In this document: one piece after another, positions 45,024-46,631 of the stretch | Layout of the letters: each line of letters starts with the position of its first letter | How positions within the stretch are numbered: the stretch's first letter is position 1 | Notes under the pieces: generated by a model | The model's input: only the letters and a program-made list of their open reading frames with translations | The model's database searches: none | Told to the model about the DNA's origin: nothing | Position numbers and translations under genes: made by a program | From: Bacteroidaceae bacterium | Lineage (GTDB): Bacteria > Bacteroidota > Bacteroidia > Bacteroidales > Bacteroidaceae | Reading direction: 5' to 3' | Assembly: GCA_017451695.1 (NCBI GenBank) | Contig: JAFTNW010000012.1 | Coordinates: 1 to 59,560, forward strand | Length of the DNA: 59,560 nucleotides

Positions 45024-46631
45024 TCAATCGTTCTTGCGAGCAATAACATTCTTCACAAACTCCATTATCAACGGAGAGGGATGTAGTACTGTGCTCTGGT
45101 ACTGTGGCTCATAGATAACACCAACATACCAATCGCATGCGGGGAACTCCACAATATCAACAAGGCCCGATTCGGGATGAACACCCGTACACTGCAAGCC
45201 TGCTTTTTCAAGCTCCTCGCGATACTCCACATTTAATTCATAGCGATGGTAGTGGCGTTCTGTGATTCTCTCACTGCCATAAGCCGCATACGCCTTTGAA
45301 TCCTTTGTTATTATAGTATCGTAGCCACCGCGACGCATGGTACCGAATGGGTTGCCAATACTCTTCAAATCCTCCATAATATCGACAATCTTGTGCGAAG
45401 TCTTATCGTCCATTTCGTAGCTGCTTGCATCGGTATAACCAAGCAGAGTGCGGGCACACTCGATAGACATTACCTGCATACCCAAACCGATACCAAGAGT
45501 AATAAAGTTATTCTCGCGCAGATACTTGGCGGCAGCAACCTTGCCCTCGAAACCGCGAGGACCCACACCGGGGCAGATGATATAACCATCCATGCCTTTG
45601 AGCACCTCGGCTGCATTCTCGTTGGTAATCTTCTCGCTGCTTATAAAATGAGGCTTAATCTTGCAATCGTTGTAAGCACCACACTGCGAAAGGCTCTCAT
45701 GGATACTCTTGTAGGCATCCTGCAAATCATACTTGCCCACAAGACCGATGTTAATTACTCGTTTCGCATTCTTTCTGCGCTCAACAAACGAACGCCAGGG
45801 TGCAAGTGCGGGTGTCTCGCCAATCTCCTCGCCTGTGAGACTCAAGATAGCGGTATCAAGCCCCTGTTCCTGCATCTTAATGGGCACCTCGTATATAGAG
45901 GGTACATCAAGGCTCTGCACAACACATTCGGGGCGCACATTACAGAAGCTGGCAACCTTCTTACACAGGCTTGCGCTCAACTTATGCTCGGCACGCAACA
46001 CAAGGCAATCGGGCTGAATACCAAGGCTCTGCAACTGCTTTACCGAGTGCTGTGTGGGCTTTGTCTTTAACTCGCCCGCAGCTGCAAGATAAGGCACATA
46101 AGTAAGATGCACACACACCGCTCTGCTACCAAGCTCCCATTTAAGCTGGCGCATAGCCTCCAAGAAGGGAAGGCCTTCGATATCACCCACGGTACCACCA
46201 ATCTCGGTAATCACAAAATCGAATTTCTCTTTTGTGCTACCACGCTTCATTTTGCGTTTAATCTCATCGGTTATATGGGGGATTACCTGAACAGTCTTGC
46301 CAAGATAGTCGCCACGACGCTCCTTCTCAATAACCTCGCTATAAATACGGCCGGTTGTAAATGTATTCCAACGAGTGGTTTTGATATCGGTAAAACGCTC
46401 ATAGTGACCAAGGTCGAGGTCGGCCTCATGACCATCTATTGTAATATAACACTCGCCATGCTCCTGGGGATTCAGAGTACCCGGAGAGACATTAATATAA
46501 GGATCAAATTTTTGGATTGTAACCTTGTATCCCCTTGCTTGCAACAACTTACCGAGAGAAGCAGAGATGATACCCTTACCAAGTGATGATGCAACGCCAC
46601 CGGTAACAAAGATAAATTTAGTTTCAGCCAT
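45024..46631 (-). CDS. pyrG: CTP synthase with a degenerate glutaminase site
   Basis: This 535-residue protein is a full-length homologue of CTP synthase, which aminates UTP to CTP. The N-terminal synthetase domain is intact: [27 protein letters not shown] and [14 protein letters not shown]. The C-terminal class I glutamine amidotransferase domain lacks the whole catalytic triad: GICLGMQ is GIGLGMQ (Gly382), and HPE is EPQ (Glu508, Gln510). The oxyanion region PGGFGxRG is PGVGPRG. This predicts use of free ammonia or a separate glutaminase. The start MAETKFIF at 46631 is the family start; the frame runs further upstream through repeat DNA. Confidence 0.95.

Follow-up and report, generated by a model that had tools for sequence, protein, structure and literature searches.

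The protein encoded by pyrG at 45024..46631 on the minus strand of the window, the whole 59,560-nucleotide stretch of Bacteroidaceae DNA analysed here, appears to be a CTP synthase that makes CTP from free ammonia and not from glutamine, a reading drawn from sequence comparison that we put at roughly 80%. The enzyme would combine an intact synthetase domain with a dead class I glutamine amidotransferase (GATase) domain kept as a scaffold, and would be one of three nucleotide enzymes shifted alike in its genus. All three (CTP synthase, GMP synthetase and carbamoyl phosphate synthetase) are standard textbook examples of glutamine amidotransferases. The larger finding, which goes beyond the original prediction for this gene, is that carA is missing and guaA shortened in the same genus, and that these losses are associated across the family.

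The pyrG open reading frame runs from 46631 to 45024, from ATG to TGA and without internal stops, and translates into a full-length protein of 535 amino acids, as had been predicted; it is the sole copy found in the window's genome. The protein scores 654.9 bits against TIGR00337 (NF003792, “glutamine hydrolyzing CTP synthase”; cut-off 462.75). Its CTP_synth_N domain (PF06418, 399.7 bits against a cut-off of 26.1) conserves the listed synthetase residues, and a class I GATase domain follows at the C-terminus (PF00117, 66.4 bits against 22.8). The latter is predicted to be well folded, with a mean pLDDT of at least 84 in 22 of the 25 ten-residue blocks counted from residue 291 and values of 69, 73 and 77 in the others.

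Triad positions were assigned by HMMER alignment to three solved CTP synthases and by comparison with PyrG of E. coli K-12. The nucleophile codon is GGT (45486..45488, minus strand), which places Gly382 where E. coli has Cys379, and GAG CCA CAG (45102..45110, minus strand) encodes Glu508-Pro509-Gln510 at the place of the HPE motif (E. coli His515 and Glu517). The Cys-His-Glu triad of class I amidotransferases is thus absent, and the claim that all three glutaminase residues are lost holds for both codons and alignments; loss of catalytic residues is one mark of ammonia-specific synthetases. The oxyanion region is altered as well, as was also claimed: Val356 (45564..45566, minus strand) aligns with E. 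coli Phe353, the counterpart of Drosophila Phe373, which is the gate of the glutamine site and makes a stacking contact with GTP. Tyr461 (45249..45251, minus strand) replaces the GTP-site residue Arg468 of E. coli, and Gln56 (46464..46466, minus strand; E. coli position 55) replaces a near-invariant Tyr in the ammonia-tunnel segment, beside E. coli Pro54 and His57. Since E. coli itself has Ile at this position, Tyr56 is not universal. With all three triad residues replaced and Phe353, Arg468 and the tunnel Tyr changed, the name “glutamine hydrolyzing” misfits the window protein.

The genes around pyrG differ even among close relatives and offered no functional clue, and an Rfam search of the window returned five tRNAs and nothing else. 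Between a tRNA gene (47200-47271) and pyrG lie two copies of a 175-nt direct repeat (46735-46909 and 46997-47171, 86% identical), each containing a 30-nt imperfect inverted repeat. The plus strand at 39808-43521 encodes a protein of 1237 aa that looks secreted and contains several nearly identical internal repeats.

Change in this protein is concentrated in one domain. Near-invariant positions, defined as at least 99% conserved in a reference set of 106 sequences (90 from the family, 15 other bacterial loci and E. coli; nine suspect family proteins, namely the triad-lost ones together with G650 and G679, were excluded beforehand), number 118 in the synthetase domain and 70 in the GATase domain. 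The synthetase (amidoligase) domain (residues 1-266; 45834..46631, minus strand) keeps 115 of its 118 positions, with 3 changed in most of the window's clade, which bears out the predicted retention of the synthetase motifs; the GATase domain (residues 290-535; 45027..45764, minus strand) keeps 54 of 70, with 16 changed. The corresponding numbers of changed synthetase and GATase positions are 1 and 9 in the sister clade described below, 5 and 6 in the g213 losers, 3 and 7 in the P0076 group, 4 and 8 in G681, and 10 and 11 in G356. Pairwise dN/dS (omega) in the dead clade is 0.012 for the synthetase domain and 0.055 for the GATase domain (114 pairs), compared with 0.015 and 0.072 in the sister clade (6 pairs) and 0.045 and 0.094 among other canonical PyrG, for which only 3 pairs passed the filter. 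Both domains are under purifying selection, so the gene is not dying; stops, frameshifts and gene-wide relaxed selection, the marks of a pseudogene, are all absent.

The window's genome measures 2.29 Mb, and the second pyrG proposed as a check was not found in this 89% complete bin, which yielded a single CTP synthase. Most of the genomes compared are metagenome bins, as far as they are named. At least one PyrG copy occurs in 32 of 44 genus genomes. The residues Gly, Glu and Gln (G/E/Q) occupy the triad positions in 22 of 22 genus genomes, the window's own included, whose copies are 87.8-100% identical, which makes the loss neither chance nor sequencing error. Nine genus genomes form a sister set with copies that are 72-74% identical and keep the C/H/E triad, and one genome has an N-terminal PyrG fragment only. 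The 12 genomes without a copy, one of them listed as 98% complete, are taken as cases of bin incompleteness. Copies solely of the window PyrG lineage are found in 28 of the 32 genomes that have any copy. In one genome (G032) two CTP synthase copies are present, both G/E/Q (C29, locus L113; C197, locus L019); with a contamination of 7%, it may be a strain mixture.

All nine sister-set proteins carry His in place of E. coli Gln383 and Asp in place of Glu403, two residues that we take to be glutamine contacts. These replacements suggest that the sister-clade enzymes, despite their intact triad, may also be unable to use glutamine.

Whether the loss is clade-wide, a question raised by the original prediction, has a divided answer: it is not Bacteroidales-wide, but G/E/Q is fixed in one subclade of the genus, and other altered triads occur elsewhere. 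Among the 231 database proteins nearest to the window PyrG or to P0076, 223 have C/H/E, 4 G/E/Q and 3 G/E/E, and 1 is unreadable. A search of 393 genomes of the order for a pattern of Cys replacement, which misses T-initial codons and other motif spellings and so gives a lower bound, identified at least 55 places in 50 genomes; all were read, and four are CTP synthases (G000, G356, G151 and G419). Further altered triads are C/Y/Q in G681 (L327), G/H/E in G151 (L398) and G419 (L401), and S/H/E in G356 (L147). The last three genomes lie outside the family; the tunnel Tyr is kept in G419 (Gly nucleophile) and G356 (Ser nucleophile), and G151 (Gly nucleophile) has Leu.

PyrG is not the only nucleotide enzyme affected in the genus. 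CarA (PF00988) was detected in 3 of 44 genus genomes and in 14 of 14 control genomes, and CarB (PF02787), counted for genus genomes only, in 39 of 44; the carB of the window's genome scores 1438 bits against a cut-off of 1027. In the five genomes read at this locus (G000, G019, G020, G022 and G042), carB comes immediately after a purF-like gene with no carA between them, the gap being 27 nt in the window's own genome; carA occupies this place in the canonical cluster described below and in G704. The purF-like gene encodes a 628-aa protein with weak class II GATase domains, whose HECGV start is kept in all nine copies examined. Its identity as purF was dropped because its TIGR01134 score (127.5 bits) lies below the PurF cut-off of 350, and we call it purF-like only. 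Open frames for CarA of about 940-1000 aa were seen in several genera, a length that could accommodate both CarA and the purF-like protein as a single fused product.

Similarly, the backbone GuaA of the genus has 435 amino acids and lacks the Cys and HPE motifs at 23 of 23 readable loci (the fragments L167, L178 and L179 are unreadable and fall outside this count). Its N-terminal region is 74 residues shorter, with 140 residues ahead of the ATP-PPase motif compared with 214 in canonical copies, and the PF00117 match of the copy in the window's genome covers profile positions 1-76 only. In G704, G664 and G701, three family genomes, the 435-aa form stands directly behind a canonical 517-aa GuaA (loci L331 4724-7620, L423 5579-8475 and L424 4230-7150), with neighbours resembling gapA and mscL. 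This tandem arrangement indicates that the 435-aa GuaA is probably an old paralogue, retained as the sole copy in some lineages. A third GuaA architecture, of about 327 aa and with no GATase region, was observed at L333 (6108-7088) and L334 (5094-6074), next to an NAD synthetase and a glutamine synthetase-like gene (verified for the L334 copies); frames resembling it occur in genomes of several other genera.

A total abandonment of glutamine as a donor was considered and rejected, since PurL and HisH keep their glutaminase motifs. PurL retains GICNGCQ and HPER at 30 of 30 loci, and a PF00117 search of the window's genome returned PyrG, HisH of the his cluster, a C26 peptidase-dipeptidase fusion and the shortened GuaA, and nothing else; the HisH and C26 motifs are intact. 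Thus three nucleotide amidotransferases (PyrG, GuaA and CarAB) appear to have lost their glutaminase, and PurL has not.

Glutamine-dependent versions of these genes do exist in four genus genomes. A purF-like-carA-carB-guaA-pyrG cluster is present in G020, G022 and G042, and in G008 its carB-guaA-pyrG end lies at the edge of a contig; in all four, guaA is full length with intact motifs and pyrG reads C/H/E. Genes for LL-diaminopimelate aminotransferase and type III glutamine synthetase adjoin the canonical cluster in three of the four genomes (the G042 copies were identified by search, the others by eye). G022 carries both this cluster and the carA-less purF-like-carB pair on a single 87.6-kb contig, which makes coexistence possible, although the contig may be a chimera; GC and tetranucleotide profiles, used to examine contamination or chimerism of the canonical cluster, gave no decision either way.

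Across the family, the three losses are associated. CarA was detected in 227 of 301 family genomes, 21 of the 301 being genus members. Outside the genus, the 435-aa GuaA occurs in 28 genomes, 24 of which show no other GuaA match (one of these 24 matches is partial); CarA was not found in 16 of these 24, compared with 39 of 256 others (Fisher p 1.5e-7, a value that, like those that follow, overstates the evidence because related genomes are not independent). PyrG was then compared in a non-random sample of 99 non-genus proteins, of which 30 are the best matches to P0076 and the rest were picked among the matches listed with CarA-less genomes favoured: of the 8 proteins from genomes with the 435-aa GuaA alone, 6 have lost the triad, compared with 1 of the other 91 (p 1.7e-7), and of the 17 from CarA-less genomes 6 have lost it, compared with 1 of 82 from CarA-bearing ones (p 7e-5). 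The sample derives from 101 loci, L356 and L361 having been excluded because the automated reading recovered no open reading frame from them; the row for L318 shows the motif of a neighbouring canonical tandem copy. Tyr56 is kept in 90 of the 99. It is changed in all 8 proteins from genomes whose sole GuaA is the 435-aa form and in 1 of the other 91 (p 5e-11), the ninth changed protein being that of G547, in which no GuaA was found and which was scored as not having the 435-aa form alone. Loss of the triad in PyrG, absence of CarA and a sole 435-aa GuaA are thus associated in these non-genus genomes. Missing CarA alone is not predictive of PyrG change, since both Tyr56 and C/H/E are kept in nine family genomes that lack CarA and do not have the 435-aa GuaA (among them G698, where no GuaA was found); G681, for its part, has a degenerate PyrG despite a detected CarA.

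The replacements of Tyr56 differ among lineages: Gln in the window's clade, Asn in the sister clade and the P0076 group, His in g213 and G679, and Glu in G681. In G650, G679 and the sister clade, Tyr56 is changed with the triad intact, and the tunnel change may therefore precede the loss of the triad. In a first tree of the synthetase domain (71 rows), the genus, the g213 losers, G679, G681, the P0076 group and G356 stand apart, with several forks open and long branches for G681 and G356. A second, quick tree, with column 56 removed and four rows omitted (among them G356 and E. coli, leaving 67), requires at least five changes of Tyr56 and four of the triad. In AU tests, whose groups were named after the first tree had been seen, a single clade for all Tyr56-changed PyrG is rejected (p 6e-8), as are the pairs genus plus g213 (0.004), genus plus G679 (0.019) and g213 plus G679 (0.005); g213 plus G681 (0.077) and genus plus the P0076 group (0.275) are not rejected. 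On these results three Tyr56-changed lineages are firmly separate, and five likely so. Four independent pairs differ in the triad, with Tyr56 changing in the same direction in two and not differing in two, a number with which a sign test cannot reach significance.

Published work on CTP synthases offers a route for ammonia. These enzymes can use exogenous NH3, and GTP covers the interdomain cleft, occludes NH3 entry and inhibits NH3 use (PMC9138612); GTP plugs the NH3 leak and stacks on Phe373, which in Drosophila gates the glutamine site (PMC8325340). Drosophila residues 50-58 form part of the tunnel, whose constriction corresponds to E. coli Pro54, His57 and Val60 (PMC9138612; PMC8325340). 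The portions of this literature available to us call tunnel regulation controversial and describe the mechanism of GTP activation as without direct experimental evidence.

In the best-supported reading, free-ammonia use with a retained dead GATase domain, which agrees with the original prediction, the intact synthetase domain would phosphorylate UTP with ATP. Cytosolic NH3 would enter through the interdomain cleft, which is closed by GTP in ordinary CTP synthases, and from there move past the gate of the tunnel. Given the loss of the Phe and of one GTP-site Arg, the inlet would no longer be blocked by GTP and would serve as the entry point for NH3; the lost GTP contacts (E. coli F353 and R468) and the replacement of Tyr56 would keep the inlet open, independently of glutamine and GTP. 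The GATase domain would probably be kept as a scaffold and as a tetramer or tunnel wall. The structural model has a pLDDT below 50 for tunnel segment 46-59 and is thus no guide to the inlet. The genus would have shifted in parallel to a CarB without CarA, a GuaA with a shortened GATase and a PyrG whose GATase is either dead or probably blind to its substrate. A broader proposal, offered tentatively and at somewhat under even odds, is that several Bacteroidales lineages independently rebuilt nucleotide amination for free ammonia, with CarB lacking CarA, GuaA lacking a working glutaminase and a re-plumbed PyrG; the tunnel-gate Tyr would have been exchanged first to admit outside NH3, after which the glutaminase would have died, through glutamine binding or single triad residues and finally through all three.

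The same ammonia-consuming enzyme could have arisen by passive evolution: in a gut rich in ammonia, selection on the glutaminase would have relaxed and the activity decayed, with the change in the tunnel being hitch-hiking or compensatory and not adaptive. The ratio of GATase to synthetase omega agrees with such decay (4.5 in the dead clade and 4.8 in the sister clade, against 2.1 in other canonical PyrG), although the comparison values come from few pairs (6 and 3) and GATase omega is still far under 1. The piecemeal losses (G/E/Q, G/H/E, G/E/E and C/Y/Q) also fit, but every one of these family groups has a replacement of Tyr56, even with an intact triad, which looks selected; we consider the passive account possible yet unlikely. 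It is very improbable that PyrG is a regulatory or filament-forming pseudo-paralogue, with CTP supplied by another enzyme or by salvage. Dead domains can be regulatory and the GATase domain is retained, but no other CTP synthase was found in the genome, genus genomes with PyrG mostly have this lineage only, and the synthetase residues are conserved under the low omega given above.

A canonical, glutamine-dependent pyrG missed by an incomplete bin is improbable too. In four of 44 genomes (G008, G020, G022 and G042) there is indeed an additional canonical pyrG next to canonical guaA and carB, three of the four also having carA, and the window's genome is short of complete; a universal gene should nevertheless survive bin incompleteness in far more than 4 of 44 genomes, and CarA, which belongs to the same cluster, is absent in 41 of 44. 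Residual glutaminase activity through another pocket nucleophile, such as the Cys353 that lies within the oxyanion strand, or through a glutaminase acting in trans, is barely credible: Cys353 (in ICPGFG) is common to most canonical family PyrG read and so is not a replacement, the His and Glu are also gone, and the PF00117 matches of the genome besides PyrG are accounted for by HisH, the C26 peptidase-dipeptidase and the shortened GuaA, with PurL having a GATase of its own.

Compared with known CTP synthases (TIGR00337), the window protein has the same full-length two-domain architecture and synthetase motifs, and differs by its triad, Phe353, Arg468 and the tunnel Tyr. Carbamoyl phosphate synthetase CPS1 resembles it in keeping an inactive class I GATase domain in both human and frog: human CPS1 has Cys changed to Ser, and the frog enzyme is unable to use glutamine even though its triad is intact (PMC4655335). 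The frog enzyme may thus parallel the sister clade, where the triad is intact and loss of glutamine use is suspected. CPS1 is an animal enzyme of ammonia detoxification, whereas the window protein is bacterial and biosynthetic and is accompanied by parallel losses in two more enzymes. The ammonia-dependent NAD synthetase NadE type N is likewise a synthetase without glutaminase (PMC3376133), but its glutaminase domain is absent, while that of the window PyrG is present and apparently dead. The G352P variant of E. coli PyrG has undetectable glutamine-dependent activity and almost full activity with NH4Cl (PMC9138612); it is a laboratory variant, whereas the window PyrG would represent a natural, fixed state. 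Table 1 of a 2012 survey gives a fused glutaminase for 100% of pyrG (800 genomes) and guaA (730), and no carAB without glutaminase (600 genomes) (PMC3376133). In the parts of the open-licence PMC literature available to us, we found no report of a natural glutaminase-less PyrG, a carA-less carB or the combined syndrome.

These findings indicate that proteins named “glutamine-hydrolyzing” can lack the residues for glutamine hydrolysis. Natural ammonia-only versions, if true, would be ready experiments on how NH3 enters the tunnel and on the role of GTP there. The ammonia-rich gut niche that had been suggested gains some support from the 24 named genus records, as 21 titles name ruminant caecum, colon or rectum and three give no site. 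Some gut bacteria may depend on ambient ammonia for nucleotide synthesis.
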